The notes under the pieces: model-generated | Databases searched by the model: none | Told to the model about the DNA's origin: nothing | The model's input: the letters and a program-made list of their open reading frames with translations, nothing else | In this document: piece by piece, positions 4,289-13,405 of the stretch | Position numbering within the stretch: position 1 is the stretch's first letter | Layout of the letters: the number at the start of each line of letters is the position of its first letter | Position numbers and translations under genes: made by a program | Assembly (NCBI GenBank): GCA_024278215.1 | Contig: JAJRTR010000018.1 | Coordinates: forward strand, 1 to 13,405 | DNA length: 13,405 nucleotides | From: a bacterium | Lineage (GTDB): Bacteria > UBP15 > UBA6099 > JAJRTR01 | Reading direction: 5' to 3'

Positions 4289-5239
4289 TTAGTTGCCGGT
4301 GTCTTCTGTTCTGGGGTGATACTTTTTGTGGAAGGCGGTCTCTTCGGCGCGCCACTTGTGTTTTTCAATGAGTTTTACGTATGTCTCCGCGTTTTTTATT
4401 GCCTTCTCGTCGACCGGCACGAAATGTCCGTCGATCAGTTGGAATGCGAATTTGAATGCCGCGAAGTCTTTATCCTTGTGCGCGTTGAGCAGTGTTTTGC
4501 GAATCCTGGCGATCATTTCCGGTGGCACGGTGCGCCAGGCGACAAAGACCCATGCGGGCGACGCTTCCGTGCATACCAGAGGTTCGAAATCTATATCTTT
4601 TCTCTGTGTCTGGCCCGAAATTCGCATGACGGATGAATATGCGATGAACGAATCTATATCACCGTTCGTAAGTTCTTCGACAAGATTTGTTACGGGTGCG
4701 TCGGTCACATAATTGATGGATGAAAAGAATTCGTCGAGCGGTTCGTCTACGCCGTTTGTGTACATGATGTATCTCATGGGTATCAGACGAGGGCCGGCCC
4801 ATTTTGTGCCGCGAAGCTGCTTGATGTTCTCGAATTTGCCTTTTTTCGTGTAAACACATTGCTGGAGAGTGGTTTTTCGATCAATGGCGAGCATGAAAAG
4901 GGGGATAAGGTCTTTTTTCCCGCTCAGCCTGTATTCGGCGTACTCATCGCCGTTTATATAGCTGATGTGAGAGCCGCCTTTCTGAAAATCTTCCAGCACA
5001 AGATCTATTATTTTGTCGCCGTAACGGTAGACAAGCTTCTTTGATGTAATGTTCGCGTCGAGTTTTTCCCCGAGAACCCGCGCAATATCTTCAAGGTATT
5101 TTGTGATCGCGGTATTTTCGAGGCCTTCCACCATCGGCACGGCCAGCACGTAGTTCTCACCCGACGCGTGTACCGGCATCACAGAGAGGATGAAAGTGAA
5201 AAAACATATTGTACAGGTTGAAAAAAATATAGTTTTCAT
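4289..5239 (-). CDS. PhnD-type periplasmic substrate-binding protein (orphan)
   Basis: A 316-residue secreted protein of the type II periplasmic binding fold, closest in pattern to the PhnD/phosphate-phosphonate ABC transporter binding family. Residues 1-26 form a Sec signal peptide (basic start, aromatic/Cys-rich core, cleavage near VHA-SG); no lipobox is seen. The mature start YVLAVPMVEGLEN, the hinge-like GGSHISYINGDEYAEY (about 88-103), the block FENIKQLRGTKWAGP (about 136-150) and VEELTNGDIDSFIAY (about 187-201) match the family's layout. Conserved ligand residues are not clearly retained, so the substrate is unknown. No permease or ATPase gene is adjacent, so it may feed a distant transporter or act as a sensor. 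ATG 5239 has GAGG 11 nt upstream. It has its own promoter at 5263-5291. Confidence 0.75.
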   Translation of the reverse strand: MKTIFFSTCTICFFTFILSVMPVHASGENYVLAVPMVEGLENTAITKYLEDIARVLGEKLDANITSKKLVYRYGDKIIDLVLEDFQKGGSHISYINGDEYAEYRLSGKKDLIPLFMLAIDRKTTLQQCVYTKKGKFENIKQLRGTKWAGPRLIPMRYIMYTNGVDEPLDEFFSSINYVTDAPVTNLVEELTNGDIDSFIAYSSVMRISGQTQRKDIDFEPLVCTEASPAWVFVAWRTVPPEMIARIRKTLLNAHKDKDFAAFKFAFQLIDGHFVPVDEKAIKNAETYVKLIEKHKWRAEETAFHKKYHPRTEDTGN

Positions 5240-5378: not shown

Positions 5379-5395
5379 ACCGTACTTCGCACGGT
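5379..5395 (-). other. Hairpin at the end of the PorV-like gene
   Basis: On the minus strand ACCGTGC (5395-5389) and GTACGGT (5385-5379) form a 7-bp stem with one G-U pair and a GAA loop, starting on the last base of the stop codon. The following sequence is GCCCCACG, with TTGTTTT only about 15 nt later. It is at best an atypical terminator for the surface-protein operon. Confidence 0.4.
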
Positions 5396-6891
5396 CAGAT
5401 TCCCAACAAAGGAATCCCGGTCGGCAACGAGGTTATTCTTCCATACGGGTCGAGCTGGAACTCCGACTCGCCTTCCTCATGCTCGGTGTTATCTTCATAA
5501 GCGGGTATGCTGCCCTGGTAATACATTAGCGGATCAGATGACATTTTCGTCGTCCCGGTCGCCTCTTCAGGAGGTATGACATTTTCAATGGATTCCGGCT
5601 TTTGGGATACGGACGGCGAACCTTCCATCTCGAATTCCGATTCGAACTCCGGCTCTGGTGTTTTTTCCATAATCGTTGCCGGCGCGGCGATTTCCGATGC
5701 TTTTTTAAGCATTTTCACTTCGCCTGTGTTTTCCTCTTCCGCAACGATTTTTTTCTTTTTATCACGTGAAGACTTTTTGTTTTTTGTTTTTTTGTCTTTG
5801 GCTTTTGCCGAACGTTTTTTCTTCGGCTTTTCGGTTTTTTCATCGGTGACATCTTTTTTGCGTTTCGATTCAGGTCTTTTCGAGCGCGAAGGTTTCGCTT
5901 TCTCTTTCGCTGGTTGTTTCTTTTTCGGCAGGTCGAGTTTCGGTTTGGGTTTGCGGCGCGAGGAAGGTGTGAGGTAACTTACGGAAATTTTGGACAGGTT
6001 GCCTGATTCGTCGTCGTTGTTGAAGGCGTAGTCGACCTGGAAGCTGTCGTAATTGAGGCCGACGCCGGCGGAGAATTCGCCGTCGTTGCTGCCGAGGCGG
6101 GCAGTGAAGTTCTGCGCAAGCGTGTATTCCGCGCCGATAGAGAAAAGAGTGTCGTCGAGGTAGTCAGTGTCAAACTGAGCGGAAAGAAGCAGTTTTTCGT
6201 CCATAAACCTGTCGGAAGCGCCGAGCCGGATGTTGAAGGGGACGACATCCGTGCCGATGTCCATGTCGGCGACGTTCTGGAAGACGAGTCCGACGCGGCG
6301 GTTTTCGTTGAATTTCTGCATGAAACCGATGTCGAAGCCGATGCCGGACGCGCTGTAGCCTGCGACTTTCTGTTTTACTGATTTTATCGTAGCGCCTGCC
6401 GACAGGCCGTCGCGCATACGCCAGGGCACGGCATAGGATAGTGAAAAAGCGAATTCGTCGGAGTCGATGACGTCGGTAGGCACCAGGCGCCCGGTGGTGG
6501 AATCCGTACCCGTGACAATAGCGTTGCCGAGTGTGGAATATACGAGATTAAAGCCGAAAGTCGAGTTTTCAAGAGGCAGGGCAAAGCTGAGTGTCTGTGT
6601 TGTGGTGTCGAGGTCGAAAACGGAACGTGACGAGCGCGTGGAAGTGAATTCGTTGCCGCGCAGGTAATAGAGGCCGGCGGGGTTCCAGTATACGGCGCTG
6701 ACGTCGTCGGCGAGTCCGGAGAAGGCGTTGCCCATGCCGAACACGCGGGCGGAGGATCCGTCGATAAAGAAGTCGGTCACAGCGAACGACTCGCCGCTCT
6801 GCTGCGCGGCGGTTGCGAGGTTCACAGCCATAGCGAGCATCAGCACGGTCGCGATGAGAGTGGTGTTTCTTTTAAGTAATTTGTTTTTCAT
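5395..6891 (-). CDS. PorV/UPF0164-like outer-membrane beta-barrel with lysine-rich and acidic tail
   Basis: A 498-residue exported protein. Residues 1-29 are a Sec signal peptide ending ATA-AQQ. Residues 35-75 carry the family hallmark SSARVFGMGNAFSGLADDVS followed by AVYWNPAGL, shared by PorV/PorQ, UPF0164 and FadL-like barrels. Alternating beta-strand pattern continues to about 308. Known PorV proteins are outer-membrane partners of type IX secretion that accept cargo C-terminal domains. The protein does not end with the barrel. Residues 312-381 are about half Lys/Arg, then 382-480 are Glu/Ser/Pro-rich and acidic, and the tail is a short hydrophobic LPTGIPLLGI. ATG 6891 has GAGG 12 nt upstream. 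It lies 53 bp downstream of the giant surface-protein gene on the same strand, so cotranscription is likely. Role as its secretion or anchoring partner is inference. Confidence 0.82.
   Translation of the reverse strand: MKNKLLKRNTTLIATVLMLAMAVNLATAAQQSGESFAVTDFFIDGSSARVFGMGNAFSGLADDVSAVYWNPAGLYYLRGNEFTSTRSSRSVFDLDTTTQTLSFALPLENSTFGFNLVYSTLGNAIVTGTDSTTGRLVPTDVIDSDEFAFSLSYAVPWRMRDGLSAGATIKSVKQKVAGYSASGIGFDIGFMQKFNENRRVGLVFQNVADMDIGTDVVPFNIRLGASDRFMDEKLLLSAQFDTDYLDDTLFSIGAEYTLAQNFTARLGSNDGEFSAGVGLNYDSFQVDYAFNNDDESGNLSKISVSYLTPSSRRKPKPKLDLPKKKQPAKEKAKPSRSKRPESKRKKDVTDEKTEKPKKKRSAKAKDKKTKNKKSSRDKKKKIVAEEENTGEVKMLKKASEIAAPATIMEKTPEPEFESEFEMEGSPSVSQKPESIENVIPPEEATGTTKMSSDPLMYYQGSIPAYEDNTEHEEGESEFQLDPYGRITSLPTGIPLLGI
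5749..5958 (-). other. Lysine-rich low-complexity segment of the PorV-like protein
   Basis: This encodes residues 312-381, in which roughly half the residues are Lys or Arg, in KKK and KPK runs. It begins right after the last recognisable barrel strand (KISVSYL). The plus strand shows a matching T-rich stretch. It may bind peptidoglycan, lipopolysaccharide phosphate or nucleic acid, or the acidic segment that follows. Confidence 0.85.
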
Positions 6892-6944
6892 ACTATGTTT
6901 ATGCCTCGATTTAGAATCCGGTTTTAACCGTAAAGATTGTCTGT

Positions 6945-9900
6945 TTACTGCTTGAATATTGTCAACTTCCCTGTTTTAGTGGTCGTGCCGCGGCTGGTTG
7001 TTGCAACCAGCCTGAATGCGTATATGCCGTTACCGACTATGTGGTTGGACAGGTCGAGGCCATACCACAGGAATTCATTGTAACCGGCATCCGTAAAGAC
7101 TTGGGTTTCCGTGTGGACGAGTTTGCCGGAACGGTTATATATTTCGAGAGTTACCGTTGCCATACTGTCGGCGATCTGGAAAGCGATGCGGGTGGGCTCG
7201 CCGGTGCGCGGATCGAAGATGCCGGGTCCGCTGAAAACGTCGCGCAGAGTCGAGCCGCCCGCGACTTCCACGTCCCATTGCGTCGTCTGCTCGTTCAGGT
7301 TGTAGTCCTTCACAGAGAGTTCGACCGTGTATTTACCGGCAGGCAGCCCGCCTGGATATACTGTGCTGCTCGGGTACCATTTGATGACGCAGTCGGTTGC
7401 GGAAGAGCAATCCGTCGTGTCCGGTGAACTCGAACCGGCTGTAACCGGCTCGCCACTGGAATTTTTCACAGTGACGGCTATCGAGCTTAGATCGACGCCG
7501 ACGCCCTCGTCGCTGAGGCTGACGTGCAGCCTTATTTCGTCGGGATCGACATAGTCGCCGTCGATGATATTGTCGTGATAATTGTCCGTGGAAGCGATGT
7601 AATCCTCGATAGTCGGCGGCACGCGGTCGTCGGATTTGAAGTATATCGAGAAGGTGTCGCCGTAGTTATAGGTTTCGTTTGTGAGTTTGATAGTGACGAC
7701 AGCCTGCCCTTCGGCGGTCGAAGCGATGTAGGCCTCGACAAAACCGGTGGAGTCGGTTGTGAGTTGTTCGTCGGGCGTTATTGACACGGCTGTCGAGTAG
7801 CCGGAGATGCTCGCGTCGATCTCGATGGGTTCGTCCGATATGGCGTTGCCGTACATGTCGTAGACTCGCACCCTGATGATGCCGCGTTCGGAGCCGTCGG
7901 CGGTGATGCGCTCGAGGCCGGAACTCTGGGTGTATGGATAGTCGATAATGGAAAGTTCGGTGCCGCCGTTGTCGTCTACCTTTTGAACGCTGGATTTCTG
8001 TACGTCCGCGGGCAATTGATCGGTGTCGGTTTTTTGTGTTGTTGTCACAGTCAGTGCCGAAACATCGTAGGGGTCCGCCGGGTCGATCGTGTAGCTCTGG
8101 CCGACGGAAGTGAGACCGGTGGATGTGAAAGAGAGACTCGCCTGGCTGGATGATGTAACAGCCTTCGTGTCGTAGTAATAGAAGTCCACAGATTCGGAGC
8201 CGGCGCTGATCTTAACGGAAGACACAGACGACGAAGTCGAAGTCGGATACCTGAATTCGCCGGTGGAAGTATTGGTCGTCGAAAGGCTTATGGTGACATC
8301 TGAGGTCGGGGTGACGGTGTTGCCGTACTGGTCGCGGACGCCGATCTGGAATTTGCCTGAAGGCGTTCCGGCAGTGAGCGGCGACGCGGGGCTCGTGAGT
8401 AGAACAAGCGTATACTCGGCGTCCGGCACGAAGTTGATAACGGCAGTGCCGCCGATGTCGGTATAGCCGACGCTGTCGCTGTCGGTCAGGGACAGGGTAA
8501 CGGTCTGGTATACGCTGTCGGAGAGGGGGATGGTGAAGGTGCCGCTGGCGGCGCGCGCGGCGAGCTGGTTTGTCTGAAGCCCAGAAAGCGCCGTGCCTAT
8601 TGTCGGAGTCGCGAATGTCGGTGAATCCGAATCCACTGATCCCGTCGCGATAATCGTGAATATATCATTACTGTTTGTCACAAGGTTACCGTCCGCGTCG
8701 CGCACGTAACATGTGATGTTGGTGGACATGCCGACGGTAGTTGTCGCATAAGACGATGCGGAGAACTCGACTTTTTTCGGTGCGCCGGGCGCGAAATAGA
8801 TCGTGCCGGAAGCGGTGTCGCCAATGGAAGATTGCGCGTCGACATCGACGGATATAGTCTCGGAAACCGTATCCGTTATGGTGAGTGTAAGCTTTCCGGC
8901 GGTAGTGCTCGCATCAACTATCTGAGAGCTTACAAAGATGTCTATGGTGCCCTCGGTGGCGCTGGTTATAGCCGCGGTTCCGCTGACCGTTACAGTCATT
9001 GTCCAGCTTCCGGTGTCGATGAAATTGCCGTAATCGTCATAAGTTTCGATATAAAACGTGGCCGTTGCATCGGTCGACGTGTCGGCGGTAGTCAGTATGA
9101 TCTGCGTGGGCGTGTCGGTCGTGACAGTTATAGGAAGGTCGGTCGTGTTCGACGCGTGATGCTGCGGCAGGAGTTCGTTGAGCGCGGTGATAGAGGCGAG
9201 TATTTCCTCGCCCGGCGGCGTCTCGACAGTGTCCTCGATAATGATCTGCGCGGTGCCGTCGGTGAGGTAGCCTGTGACAGCCGTGTAGGTGGCGGACATC
9301 AACGCGGTGTTGTCGGGCGATTGCGAAGTGAGAGTGCCGGAGTAAACGTGTTTCTGCGACGCCGGGCTGACGGAACCGCCGGTCATAGAGAAACTCACGC
9401 CGATGTTTCTGGCCGGGCCTGTGCTGATGGCCATGCCGTCGTTGTCGTAGACGGTGACCGTGAGCGGCTCGGCGGATGCGCCCGCGACCATCGTGCCGTC
9501 CTGGGCGGTCAGCGCGATATAGTCTGCGGCGACATAGAGAGTCTGCGTGCCGAAGAACTGGTAATCTTCAGTGATGGTCGACAGGTCGATGGGGCCGATG
9601 TCGACGAGGTCGACCCATTGATCGTCGTCGTAATCGACGTCCTTGATGCTCAGCCAACGTGTGGATGTCGCGACTTTGAACTTGTAGAGTCCCTGCTGGT
9701 TTATCGGGTCGACCTCGACAAACATGTCGGGATAGACCCTGTCGCCGGTGACGGACTCGAAGTAGAAGTTGGTCGTGTTGCCAAGGCCGGAAATGCCGGT
9801 GGGAGTTGAAGTGGCGAACTGGACATATATGCCGACATTGGTCTGGTATTCCAGGCCGCCGCGGAGAGCGTAGTTGCCGGGTTCGGGGGCGGCCGGTATG

Positions 9901-12900
9901 GTGCCGATGTTGCCGTTTTCGCCGATGAGTTTCAGATATGTCTGGCCGTTGCCGGCGCCACCGGGTTCCACGGAGTTAGGCGGAGTTACCGCGTCGATTG
10001 TGTCATAGCCCGATTTAGTTATTGTCAGTCCGGCGGCGGACCACGTGTTGAAATAATACATATTCAGATTCGTGCCCAGGCTGGAGTAGGCGGGTGGAGT
10101 GCCGCCGTGCGCGAGTGTCGCGCCTGTTATCGGGTTGTTGTACTGGTCGTAAAGTTCGACAACCAGCGGGAACTCGAGAGGAACACCCGTGTCGTAGGTG
10201 AAGTCCGGGACGACCACAGTGCCTGTCGCGGAAACCCCGCTCGCCGCGGCGCAGCCGTATACAAAACCCTGTTTCCTGTATTGTACATAATAATTGCCGT
10301 TCGAATGCCCGAGATACCACGCCGGGCCCGCGGCGTCGTAGACCGGTGATACGGCGGGTGTCACTTCCGAACTGCACACGGAATCGGAATAGAGTTTCAC
10401 GGTGTCGGTGCTGCCGAATGCAAGAGTGTTGTTCAGTTCATCTTCGAGCGAGTCGATCATTATCGTATATTCAAGATCGTCGCCCCCGGCGGTGATCCAT
10501 GCGGGTGTCGATTGAGTGGTTGTATTTACATTTATGGAAGCGTCGTCGATTCGTTCCATGTAGCCGGTTTTCAGCAGTTTCACCCAGTGTGCGCCTGTGG
10601 TCTGTGGAGCGATATAGAAAGTAGACGAGGCGGCGTACCATGTCGGGCCGTAAGCCGGGGCCTCCTCGGCGGTGCATGAAGCGTCTGTGCAGATAGTGAT
10701 AGTCTCGGAGCCGTCGAGATCGACGCCGTAGCCGAGTTCCGTAATGATGCTTGCCGTGGCGCCCTGCACAGTGATCTGGTACATGAGGCCGTCGCCGCCG
10801 GTCTGCGTCCAGCCGGGTGAAACCTGCGCCGTGACGGCTGCCGTGATGGTCGCGCCGTCGATTGTGTCGATAAAGCCGTCGCTCTGCACCTCGATTCGTT
10901 TACCGCCTGTCGTGGCGGGCGCGATATACCATGAAGTGCCGGAGAACTGTGATGTAAGCGGTGCCTCGGTCGAGCCGCAGGACGGGTCGAGACACACGGT
11001 GATCGTCTCACTTCCATCGGCGGTGACAGCAACGCCGATCTCTGTTTCCATCATGCCCGTGCCGCTCTGCACGAGAATCTGGAAGGGGAGTCCGTCGCCG
11101 CCCGGGCCGTCCCATGCGGGCACGGCCCTCGTCGTGTTCGACGTCGCGGCGATCTGGGAGCCGTCTACGGTTCGCACGTAGCCGGGTTCGCTGATGCGCA
11201 TGTAGTAATTGCCGTCGAGTGAGGGAGAGATGAACCACGCGCCGGATGCAGCGCTCCAGAACCGCGCGAGTGGCGATTGCGGGTCGCCGCCGCTCGAACA
11301 GTCGAACGCGGCGCATATCTCGACAGTTTCGTCACCGTCGAGTGTCAGCGCGTTGCCGAGTTCGTCCTCGAACGCGCCCGCGCCGCCCGCGACCATGATA
11401 AGATACTGCAGACCGGCATACTGGTTCGATGAGCCGATGACCGGCGCGACGGCGCTGGTGGCGTAGGCGTCGAAATAAAGGATAGTCTGTCCGCTTGTCG
11501 CGGGCTGAAACGCCGCCGCGATGCCGCTGTTGGAAACTTCCGGATTGATGAAACCTGTTTTTCTTATTGTCAGCAGGCCGTTTGTCGATGTCGCCCAGAC
11601 GGCCATGTTCGCGTTCTCGTAATCCGGGGCACCGCCGTTGAAGGTGAGAGTATCCAGTCCGGTCGTGTCCGTCGCGTTGCCGAACTCGTCGGCCATGTAT
11701 ATTTTCAGCGGGTATTTGAGACCGTCCGTGTCGGCCTGCGTCCAGCCGGGCATCACCTGCGGGCCGGACGCGTTCGGAGCTATCGAAGTGTTGTCGATCG
11801 TGTCGACGAAACCGGTTTTGTACATCTTCATCCACGCGGTGGATGTGCTCAGGGGTGCGATGTACCACGACGACGTCAGTGTGTCCCATGTCGGGCCAAG
11901 AACGGGCGACTCCGTACTCGAACAATCGCTCGCCGTACATACGGCCAGAGTTTCCGAGCCCGCCAGGGTGAGGTCCGTGCCGAATTCGTTCTGGAAAACG
12001 CTGCCTGTGTCGTCGACCCTGATCTGGTACATGAGGCCGTCGGCGGCGGCCTGCGTCCAGGCGGGCATCTGCTGCGATGCCGTCGACGCGGTAATGCTCG
12101 CGCCATCGCAGGATTCGATGAAACCGAGATCGTATATTGCAATGTATTTTGTGCCGGTGGAGGCGGGCGCGATGTACCACGAATCGGTGTCGAAGTTGGA
12201 AATAGCCGGCGTTTCCGTCGCTGTGCAGGCGGCGTCGGTGGTGACGCTGACGACTTCGTTGCCGTCGAGTGTAATCGCCGCGCCGATCTCGGACTCGACG
12301 GCTGCCGCGCCGCCCGTGACTTTTATCTGATACTGAAGTCCGTCGCCGGTAGTGTCGTCCCAGTCGGGCGTTTCCTGTGCGGCGGCCGGATCGAGATTGC
12401 GCACTGTACTGTCCGCTGTGCTGACGAACCCTGTGGTCGAGATATGCACGTAGCGCGCCGCGCCGGCGACGCTCGGCGCGATAAACCACGAACTGCTCGC
12501 TGCCGACCACACGCTGCTCGCGGGCGTTTCCGGGCCGGGCGCGCCGCAGCCGACTGCGTTGCAGATTAGAATCTCCTCGGTGCCGTCGAGCGCGAGTTGG
12601 TTGCCCAGTTCGTCTTCATACAAGCCCGCCCCGCCTGTAATTTTCAGAAGGTATTCGAGGCCGCGGTATGTGTTCGCGGAACTGCCGATTGTCGGCGCGG
12701 CGGCGTTCTGCGCGTAGTTCCCGAATGCAAGTACCGTCTGCGAATTCGTCGCGGGCTGGAAGGCGGCGGCCAGGCCGGTGTTTGTGACTTCCGTGTTGAC
12801 GTAACCTGTTTCGGTGATTCTCAGTTGGGCGTTTGTGTCCGTGGCCCAGACAGCCATGTTCGCACTCGAGTAATCCGGGGCAGTCGAGTTGAAGGTGATC

Positions 12901-13405
12901 GAGTCCAGCACGGCGATATTCATCGCTGTGTCGAGTTCGTCGCCGACATAGACTTTGAGCGGGAACTTCAGCCCGTCGGCGGCGGCCATCGTCCATTCGG
13001 GAATCGCCTGCGGGCCCGACGCGGAGGGCGTTATGGCCACGCTGTCTATGGTATCGACATAGCCCGATTTATACATTTTTATATAACGTGAGCTTGTGCT
13101 CGCGGGCGCGATGTACCACGCGGTGCCGTCCCATTCCGGACCGACCGAAGGCGCTTCCGTGCCGGTGCAGGTGCCGTCTGTGCAGACATCCATGGATTCT
13201 GTGCCGTCGAGCGACAGGTCGTTGCCCATTTCGTCCTGGAACTTGCTGCCCGTGTCGACGATTTTGATCTGGTACGGGAGGCCGTCCGCACCCGACCACG
13301 CAGGGCTGACCTGTGTTGTATTCGATGTCGTGATGCTCGAGCCGTCGCAGGTTTCGATGAAGCCGAGATCATAGGCGGCCAGCCACTTATTGCCAGTGCT
13401 CGCGG
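6945..13405 (-). CDS. Giant modular surface protein with tandem beta-repeats, Ig-like domains and FlgD/type IX-like C-terminal domain (5' end outside window)
   Basis: An open frame of at least 2152 codons that continues past the right edge, so the true start and signal peptide are unseen. Layout from N- to C-terminus: about 12 repeat modules of about 100 residues (9540-13405), each with DGL-Y-I, ELG-LDG, WYIAP and GF-DT-DG motifs; then five invasin/Big-type segments marked by D-x-GN turns (DDYGN, DADGN, DQYGN, DMYGN) between about 7630 and 9539; then a further beta domain starting DRVPPTIEDY (about 7260-7628); then a C-terminal FlgD-type domain (6948-7244). Composition is Thr/Ser/Gly/Asp-rich with few Lys, typical of secreted adhesins. 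Cysteines occur mostly as pairs. It is followed after 53 bp by the PorV-like gene. It is probably exported and displayed; adhesion is a likely but unproven role. The ATG at 13229 is internal, not the start. Confidence 0.88.
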   Translation of the reverse strand, partial: ASTGNKWLAAYDLGFIETCDGSSITTSNTTQVSPAWSGADGLPYQIKIVDTGSKFQDEMGNDLSLDGTESMDVCTDGTCTGTEAPSVGPEWDGTAWYIAPASTSSRYIKMYKSGYVDTIDSVAITPSASGPQAIPEWTMAAADGLKFPLKVYVGDELDTAMNIAVLDSITFNSTAPDYSSANMAVWATDTNAQLRITETGYVNTEVTNTGLAAAFQPATNSQTVLAFGNYAQNAAAPTIGSSANTYRGLEYLLKITGGAGLYEDELGNQLALDGTEEILICNAVGCGAPGPETPASSVWSAASSSWFIAPSVAGAARYVHISTTGFVSTADSTVRNLDPAAAQETPDWDDTTGDGLQYQIKVTGGAAAVESEIGAAITLDGNEVVSVTTDAACTATETPAISNFDTDSWYIAPASTGTKYIAIYDLGFIESCDGASITASTASQQMPAWTQAAADGLMYQIRVDDTGSVFQNEFGTDLTLAGSETLAVCTASDCSSTESPVLGPTWDTLTSSWYIAPLSTSTAWMKMYKTGFVDTIDNTSIAPNASGPQVMPGWTQADTDGLKYPLKIYMADEFGNATDTTGLDTLTFNGGAPDYENANMAVWATSTNGLLTIRKTGFINPEVSNSGIAAAFQPATSGQTILYFDAYATSAVAPVIGSSNQYAGLQYLIMVAGGAGAFEDELGNALTLDGDETVEICAAFDCSSGGDPQSPLARFWSAASGAWFISPSLDGNYYMRISEPGYVRTVDGSQIAATSNTTRAVPAWDGPGGDGLPFQILVQSGTGMMETEIGVAVTADGSETITVCLDPSCGSTEAPLTSQFSGTSWYIAPATTGGKRIEVQSDGFIDTIDGATITAAVTAQVSPGWTQTGGDGLMYQITVQGATASIITELGYGVDLDGSETITICTDASCTAEEAPAYGPTWYAASSTFYIAPQTTGAHWVKLLKTGYMERIDDASINVNTTTQSTPAWITAGGDDLEYTIMIDSLEDELNNTLAFGSTDTVKLYSDSVCSSEVTPAVSPVYDAAGPAWYLGHSNGNYYVQYRKQGFVYGCAAASGVSATGTVVVPDFTYDTGVPLEFPLVVELYDQYNNPITGATLAHGGTPPAYSSLGTNLNMYYFNTWSAAGLTITKSGYDTIDAVTPPNSVEPGGAGNGQTYLKLIGENGNIGTIPAAPEPGNYALRGGLEYQTNVGIYVQFATSTPTGISGLGNTTNFYFESVTGDRVYPDMFVEVDPINQQGLYKFKVATSTRWLSIKDVDYDDDQWVDLVDIGPIDLSTITEDYQFFGTQTLYVAADYIALTAQDGTMVAGASAEPLTVTVYDNDGMAISTGPARNIGVSFSMTGGSVSPASQKHVYSGTLTSQSPDNTALMSATYTAVTGYLTDGTAQIIIEDTVETPPGEEILASITALNELLPQHHASNTTDLPITVTTDTPTQIILTTADTSTDATATFYIETYDDYGNFIDTGSWTMTVTVSGTAAITSATEGTIDIFVSSQIVDASTTAGKLTLTITDTVSETISVDVDAQSSIGDTASGTIYFAPGAPKKVEFSASSYATTTVGMSTNITCYVRDADGNLVTNSNDIFTIIATGSVDSDSPTFATPTIGTALSGLQTNQLAARAASGTFTIPLSDSVYQTVTLSLTDSDSVGYTDIGGTAVINFVPDAEYTLVLLTSPASPLTAGTPSGKFQIGVRDQYGNTVTPTSDVTISLSTTNTSTGEFRYPTSTSSSVSSVKISAGSESVDFYYYDTKAVTSSSQASLSFTSTGLTSVGQSYTIDPADPYDVSALTVTTTQKTDTDQLPADVQKSSVQKVDDNGGTELSIIDYPYTQSSGLERITADGSERGIIRVRVYDMYGNAISDEPIEIDASISGYSTAVSITPDEQLTTDSTGFVEAYIASTAEGQAVVTIKLTNETYNYGDTFSIYFKSDDRVPPTIEDYIASTDNYHDNIIDGDYVDPDEIRLHVSLSDEGVGVDLSSIAVTVKNSSGEPVTAGSSSPDTTDCSSATDCVIKWYPSSTVYPGGLPAGKYTVELSVKDYNLNEQTTQWDVEVAGGSTLRDVFSGPGIFDPRTGEPTRIAFQIADSMATVTLEIYNRSGKLVHTETQVFTDAGYNEFLWYGLDLSNHIVGNGIYAFRLVATTSRGTTTKTGKLTIFKQ
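6948..7244 (-). other. C-terminal FlgD/type IX-sorting-like Ig domain of the giant protein
   Basis: The last about 99 residues have the pattern FDP...PTRIAFQI...VTLEIYNRSGKLV...GYNEFLWYGLDLSNHIVGNGIYAFRL...GKLTIFKQ (segments shown). This matches the FlgD Ig-like/type IX type A sorting family (NP-TxI-F-L, V-L-IYD-GR-V, W-G-D--G--V--GIY-y-L, final K-x-x-hydrophobic-K). In Bacteroidota such domains direct cargo across the outer membrane and are removed on anchoring. Whether this one is cleaved is unknown. Confidence 0.75.
9540..10790 (-). repeat. Degenerate third cassette A3-E-B3-C3
   Basis: A3 (10479-10790) is a good copy of A2. It is followed by a divergent module E (10182-10478; SLEDELNNTLAFGS, WYLGHSNGNYYVQYRKQGF), then B3 (9858-10181; LEFPLVVELYDQYNN, GGTPPAYSS), then a weakly related C3 (9540-9857; starts RGGLEYQTNVG, contains an acidic DVDYDDDQ stretch). 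The order differs from A-B-C-D, and similarity fades towards the Ig-like region, consistent with an older edge of the array. Confidence 0.65.
10791..12038 (-). repeat. Super-repeat 2: A2-B2-C2-D2
   Basis: Second copy of the cassette, 1248 bp: A2 11724-12038, B2 11415-11723, C2 11094-11414, D2 10791-11093. Shared DNA words, such as the one at 12020 recurring at 10772 (exactly 1248 bp = 416 codons apart), show duplication of whole cassettes rather than single modules. The frame is intact throughout. Confidence 0.85.
12039..13283 (-). repeat. Super-repeat 1: four-module cassette A1-B1-C1-D1 in the giant protein
   Basis: The four modules start at the DGL-type motif: A1 12975-13283, B1 12663-12974, C1 12342-12662, D1 12039-12341. 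A, C and D share LDG-E--VC and WYIAP/WFIAP motifs. B lacks cysteine and carries TFN--APDY--ANMAVWAT and AAAFQPAT-SQT. The cassette is about 415 residues, and each module is far closer to its counterpart in the next cassette than to its neighbours. The end of a preceding D0 module is visible at 13284-13405. Confidence 0.85.

Follow-up and report, generated by a model that had tools for sequence, protein, structure and literature searches.

Genes and features of the locus

The window analysed here, i.e., the whole stretch of 13,405 bp, is the entire contig C193 of a 4.55-Mb assembly (G000) from an order of UBP15/ADurb.Bin236-type metagenome-assembled genomes (MAGs). The order is represented here by eight genome records, which correspond to seven distinct genomes (G103 is the G004 assembly) and include some that are 97, 95 and 92 percent complete; all of the genomes compared are draft assemblies, for the most part MAGs. 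The minus strand of the window carries a gene encoding a giant, repeat-rich, putative secreted protein (6945..13403), hereafter the cargo, a spacer of exactly 53 bp between the cargo stop and the next start (6892..6944, minus strand), in which no terminator-like site was found on the minus strand, and a gene encoding a 498-aa outer-membrane barrel of the PorV/PorQ family, the proposed cognate shuttle and anchor (5395..6891, minus strand). Downstream of the barrel lies a gene for a phosphonate-binding-like periplasmic protein (4289-5239), and the gene in this position is not the same one in relatives. recA and an RNase Y gene are located on the opposite strand to the pair, towards the window's other end.

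The cargo ORF runs off the contig at its 5' end, which leaves 2152 aa. A complete orthologue from another genome of the order (G001, L087:2614-14211) has 3865 aa and a signal peptide-like start. The cargo combines degenerate repeats with Ig-like stretches and ends in a FlgD_ig domain. Self-comparison revealed repeat units of approx. 100 and 208 aa with the motif LDGxE...WYIAP...GFVDTID (10550..13403, minus strand), and no tandem repeats were found in the gene at the DNA level. The stalk contains a bacterial Ig-like (Big_1-like) domain (7671..7910, minus strand), whose PF02369 match (1.4e-07, 31.9 bits) lies below the cut-off of 34.9 bits.

The last 105 aa of the cargo (6948..7262, minus strand) constitute a C-terminal domain (CTD) resembling the type A CTDs of the type IX secretion system (T9SS) and FlgD_ig. 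In the Pfam scan, PF13860 (FlgD_ig) matched cargo aa 2069-2137 with 39 bits (cut-off 27; 6.7e-10), and a CHU_C match was sub-threshold. The AlphaFold model of the CTD is a seven-stranded beta sandwich (pLDDT 95), for which the closest fold in the PDB is the PorU CTD (6za2_B; Z 12.8, 2.3 Å over 100 residues), in a search where many Ig-like folds reach Z 10-12. A profile of 41 CTDs matches PorU, PorZ and FlgD, as well as the substrate CTDs observed in SprA complexes (8glj_D and 8glk_D). The PorU CTD ranks first by profile and by fold alike; the cargo thus carries a T9SS CTD of the type A/PorU/FlgD kind, in line with the FlgD/type IX-like end that had been predicted. FlgD_ig-type domains are also known in FlgD and in enzymes, which would suit a reading in which the domain merely caps the protein structurally as an Ig fold, the cargo leaves the cell by a different route (e.g., type II) and the barrel is its surface anchor. 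Like T9SS CTDs, the domain sits at the very end of the protein, and the PorU CTD takes first rank in both comparisons, which makes this reading quite unlikely.

The barrel and its tail

The barrel belongs to the PorV/PorQ family (NF033709; 109.2 bits, cut-off 90) and falls well outside the PorV equivalog (NF033710; 35.3 bits, cut-off 250). Neither the Pfam nor the NCBIfam scan matched it to the PorP_SprF family; the Pfam scan yielded a PF03349 match. Together with the ORFs and the PF13860 match, NF033709 confirms the original prediction of a giant cargo with a FlgD/type IX-like end and, 53 bp further on, a PorV-like barrel. The barrel domain was modelled for aa 30-312 (5956..6804, minus strand; AlphaFold pLDDT 92), and the top Foldseek matches of this model are 8gl6_F and 6h3i_F, the PorV of the Flavobacterium johnsoniae translocon. 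Both this model and that of the CTD are confident, and they drew solely on sequences from the window and related loci. In the VIA-align fold comparison, in which only the families on its list were counted as evidence, the FadL family ties with PorV at Z 30-31.6: FadL and TodX reach Z 28-31.6, the model aligning with 2r88_A at Z 31.6 (2.6 Å over 258 residues) and with 8gl6_F at Z 31.0 (5.3 Å over 277 residues). This equally strong FadL/TodX fold match, along with PF03349, favours the view of the barrel as a FadL-like channel for small molecules, next to which the cargo gene lies incidentally or for the sake of mere co-regulation. By sequence profile, however, the nearest solved barrel is, by a wide margin, PorV rather than FadL (chain 6h3i_F, E 1e-39, compared with 1e-4 or worse for FadL relatives), and the barrel is PorV-like in both sequence and fold, as expected of the T9SS shuttle family. 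The same family includes the UPF0164 and PorV-PorQ barrels of Spirochaetes, Elusimicrobia and others. These proteins are usually annotated as stand-alone FadL-like barrels, and we found no description in the literature of their pairing with a cargo.

The barrel protein ends in a charged, K/E/P-rich tail of 192 aa, recognised by its composition (5398..5973, minus strand), which contains 43 K/R and 34 D/E residues arranged with a basic stretch first and an acidic one after it. From the topology of the barrel, this tail would be periplasmic. Barrel orthologues are found throughout the order, with tails that are longer or shorter, and the barrels of a further pair (pair B) have repeated domains in place of the charged tail.

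Pairing of cargo and barrel across genomes

An orthologous cargo-barrel pair is present in five genomes of the window's order (G001, G002, G003, G004 and G006), and a related pair occurs in G005. Within the window's own genome, a CTD cargo is encoded directly upstream of three of the four PorV-family barrels examined (on C193, C34 and C117); the barrel on C55 has none in that position. The same arrangement recurs in a set of 80 loci from many phyla, picked by the barrel alone: a same-strand CTD cargo is the immediate upstream neighbour of 49 of the 82 barrels and the immediate downstream neighbour in 5 of 80 cases (Fisher P 7e-14, for loci that are not fully independent, particularly those of the same phylum), with a median gap of approx. 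12 bp. The CTD profile used for this count had been built from these loci and those of the order, and iterated on that set. The expectation that cargo-PorV pairs would be found repeatedly in relatives therefore holds, and extends to this genome and to many phyla. Because relatives in the order have the pair too and its gene order is seen again in other phyla, the pair in the window is not a chance arrangement. A directional gene order kept across phyla, in loci selected only by the barrel, also argues against a FadL-like channel with an incidental neighbour, which we regard as very unlikely. In a further genome (G035, contigs C2 and C40), FlgD_ig repeats occur in large number inside open frames of 22,286 and 10,454 aa.

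The shuttle gene is conserved directly downstream of the cargo gene, as in the cognate pair SprB-SprF. By analogy with the published type B cargo/SprF pairs, the cargo with its cognate shuttle appears to be a widespread unit. Similarities to SprB-SprF and Fjoh_3952-3951 include the one-to-one relationship of cargo and barrel, the position of the barrel gene directly downstream, and the giant adhesin as cargo (PMC12618676, PMC9143113). Here, however, the shuttle is of the PorV family and not PorP/SprF, and the CTD is type A/PorU/FlgD-like rather than type B. Moreover, the published type B cargo/shuttle cases work with canonical SprA (PMC12618676, PMC9143113).

Search for SprA, the motor and the sortase

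In the cross-phylum set, TIGR04189 (SprA) matches were found in 42 of the 44 pair-bearing genomes, most of them in ORFs of 1700-2250 aa, and the cut-off was reached by 14; one of the 44, G103, which belongs to the window's order, gave short matches only. A second profile (A8), made from SprA proteins of candidate phyla, reaches 370-750 bits in numerous pair-bearing genomes and phyla outside the order. In the window's order, neither TIGR04189 nor A8 found a canonical SprA, giving only short stretches of at most 41 bits in eight records (seven genomes). PF14349 (SprA_N) was silent in G000 and in its controls too, and TIGR03517 (GldM), for which there was no positive control, was silent everywhere, including genomes with a strong SprA.

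C25 peptidases were found in G000, G001, G002, G005 and G006. The two C25 proteins examined in G000 have no CTD detectable by HMM; one of them, of 1138 aa, scores 139 bits against a PorU cut-off of 420 and has TPRs at its end. As no CTD was found in either and one ends in TPRs, they were set aside as PorU candidates. A C25 peptidase with TPRs fused in place of a CTD (L263:3692-7108) is kept in some relatives.

It may be asked whether the organism, albeit of an unusual phylum and with cognate shuttles, simply possesses an ordinary T9SS, of which the canonical SprA or the full apparatus was missed through assembly gaps or extreme divergence. The draft state of all the genomes, the presence of T9SS-type CTDs and PorV, and the PorU-related C25 peptidases of G000 and some relatives would fit this explanation. 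It is nonetheless unlikely, given that eight records, including those 97, 95 and 92 percent complete, gave no more than 41 bits where many other phyla give 370-750, and that the two G000 peptidases lack a CTD, one having a TPR end instead.

SprA-related outer-membrane proteins of the order

Genomes of the window's order encode approximately five to six large outer-membrane proteins (OMPs) each, of 1100-1850 aa. The profile of this SprA-related family (A7) aligns with SprA in hhalign (prob 98.9, E 2e-17, 428 columns, SprA model positions 199-651), whereas the control, the PorV-barrel profile against SprA, gave a prob of 1.9 percent. The matched part is the N-terminal third of SprA only; no match extends into the remaining two thirds, to which the DTEDLN region belongs. 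The OMPs themselves are sub-threshold with TIGR04189, and a PDB sequence search with A7 did not reach SprA. The possibility that the 1660-aa OMP on C109 (A5) is a canonical SprA that has diverged was rejected, since its hhalign match (prob 95.3) covers just 165 columns and it groups with the other OMPs of the order (E 5e-64).

Regions like the N-terminus of SprA are likewise present in OMPs whose genomes also encode a true SprA (A14; hhalign prob 98.9, 199 columns) and in DUF11-linked barrels (A13; hhalign prob 98.2). Because of this, homology to the N-terminus of SprA is no proof of a translocon. A DUF11-type repeat protein, for example, has an SprA-like motif in its C-terminal barrel (L189:1-5742). 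A cluster in G033 (CTD cargo, PorV and an 883-aa OMP) was dropped as support, its OMP being of the DUF11-barrel subtype.

The argument for a translocon is instead carried by gene linkage, which is partial in the window's order and strong in Bipolaricaulota. In the order, an A7-family OMP is encoded directly after a further cargo-barrel pair (pair C) in G001, G004 and G006 (where the OMP is partial), directly after a barrel without cargo in G002, and, in the case of another A7-family OMP, directly after a CTD cargo on C131 of G001. In G000, the A7-family OMP does not adjoin pair C, and nothing SprA-like adjoins the window's own pair. At another locus (L213:4362-10423), the gene for a CTD cargo with a BamB/PQQ-type propeller immediately precedes that for an SprA-related OMP, without an intervening PorV gene.

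The three-gene cluster of Bipolaricaulota

In 17 of the 20 Bipolaricaulota loci (L243-L262), a count in which the barrel score is weak in two or three loci, the genes follow the order CTD cargo, barrel, SprA-related OMP. In one such run (G099), the genes for a cargo made of a subtilase plus CTD, a PorV-family barrel and a 1321-aa SprA-related protein overlap or nearly touch; the conserved cluster (e.g., L241:4175-11195) comprises an S8 subtilase with CTD, a PorV-family barrel and the SprA-related OMP. The OMP, which contains an inserted beta-propeller, is found in 55 of 60 Bipolaricaulota genomes, nearly always as a single copy. Its profile aligns with SprA over 515 columns (hhalign prob 99.7, E 4e-25) and retrieves the SprA chain 6h3i from the PDB (E 7e-5). 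No canonical SprA was found in the Bipolaricaulota genomes, in which A8 gave at most 56 bits, with coordinates that, among the matches listed, lie within the SprA-related ORFs. We found no relevant literature on T9SS in Bipolaricaulota or Elusimicrobia.

The Bipolaricaulota cluster resembles the window's locus in that a CTD cargo is followed by a PorV-type barrel and that canonical SprA was not found. The two differ in the compact SprA-related OMP, which in Bipolaricaulota is adjacent and mostly single copy and in the window's genome is located elsewhere and multicopy. These loci also bear on the original prediction that the pair is complete in itself as a minimal two-gene system, which is not supported: elsewhere, the pairs mostly coexist with a full-size SprA in the genome, and in Bipolaricaulota they have a third adjacent gene. 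A true two-gene system, in which the barrel would be translocon and anchor at once, as in two-partner secretion or a split autotransporter, might be read from the adjacency of the genes in every orthologue read and from the unusually long tails of the barrels. Against it stand the narrow PorV/FadL-type fold predicted for the barrel, the coexistence of SprA with most pairs elsewhere, and the large OMP gene fixed beside the pair in Bipolaricaulota, and we consider such a system highly improbable.

A proposed type IX-like system with cognate shuttles

In F. johnsoniae, PorV docks at the lateral opening of SprA, PorV loops bind the CTD inside the pore, and PorV exits SprA sideways together with the cargo (PMC10994853). 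Type B cargo has its cognate PorP/SprF shuttle gene directly downstream (PMC12618676). It is reasonable to assume that one gene of the window's pair codes for a surface protein and the other for the PorV-type shuttle dedicated to it, which would act as type IX substrate and carrier, and that, by analogy with the type B pairs, each cargo would have its own PorV-type shuttle. The barrel would bind the CTD, pass laterally out of the translocon together with the cargo and then anchor the cargo on the cell surface. The translocon would be provided in trans; since the searches yielded no canonical SprA in the order, an SprA-related OMP of 1100-1850 aa appears the likeliest candidate. While the cargo-shuttle reading is well supported, the reading as a whole (a surface protein with its own PorV-type shuttle and a translocon in trans, likely an SprA-related OMP) is probable rather than firm.

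Our proposal is a type IX-like system whose translocon is compact and SprA-related; in the window's organism, this component is inferred. In its more general form, the system would belong to lineages lacking canonical SprA and consist of a CTD cargo, a cognate PorV-type shuttle and an SprA-related translocon of approx. half the size of SprA. Its genes would be clustered in Bipolaricaulota, whereas in the window's lineage they would lie apart, with several paralogous translocons; we put forward this general scheme tentatively, as somewhat less likely than not. The original prediction was to fall if there was neither an SprA-like translocon nor co-occurrence of the two genes. With regard to the former, canonical SprA was indeed not found, but SprA-related OMPs are present; with regard to the latter, co-occurrence is strong.

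Compared with the type A branch of T9SS (PorV and SprA/Sov of F. johnsoniae and Porphyromonas gingivalis), the locus shares a type A-like CTD, a PorV-family barrel and, in the genome, SprA-related OMPs. It differs in that the type A branch has one shared PorV, whereas here there is one PorV-type barrel per cargo; in addition, canonical SprA was not found, nor was a PorU with a CTD among the two C25 proteins examined in G000, and the organism is not a member of Bacteroidota. In a genome survey, T9SS was reported as confined to Bacteroidetes (PMC4793230), and type A cargo has been described as dependent on a single PorV shuttle (PMC12618676). Since many candidate phyla have one PorV-type shuttle per cargo, cognate pairing may be more general, and a PorV common to all cargo would then be a special case. 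Lineages that have cargo and shuttle and lack canonical SprA provide a test case for the smallest working translocon and would offer a simpler structural target than the 36-strand SprA machine. Most interesting in this respect is that cognate PorV-type pairs and compact SprA-related barrels occur together in lineages without canonical SprA.

Genes for ExbB/ExbD-type proton channels are located near PorV-family barrels at three loci (L127:4646-6230, L097:13550-15213 and L225:5795-7071) and are a lead as to what may energise these systems.
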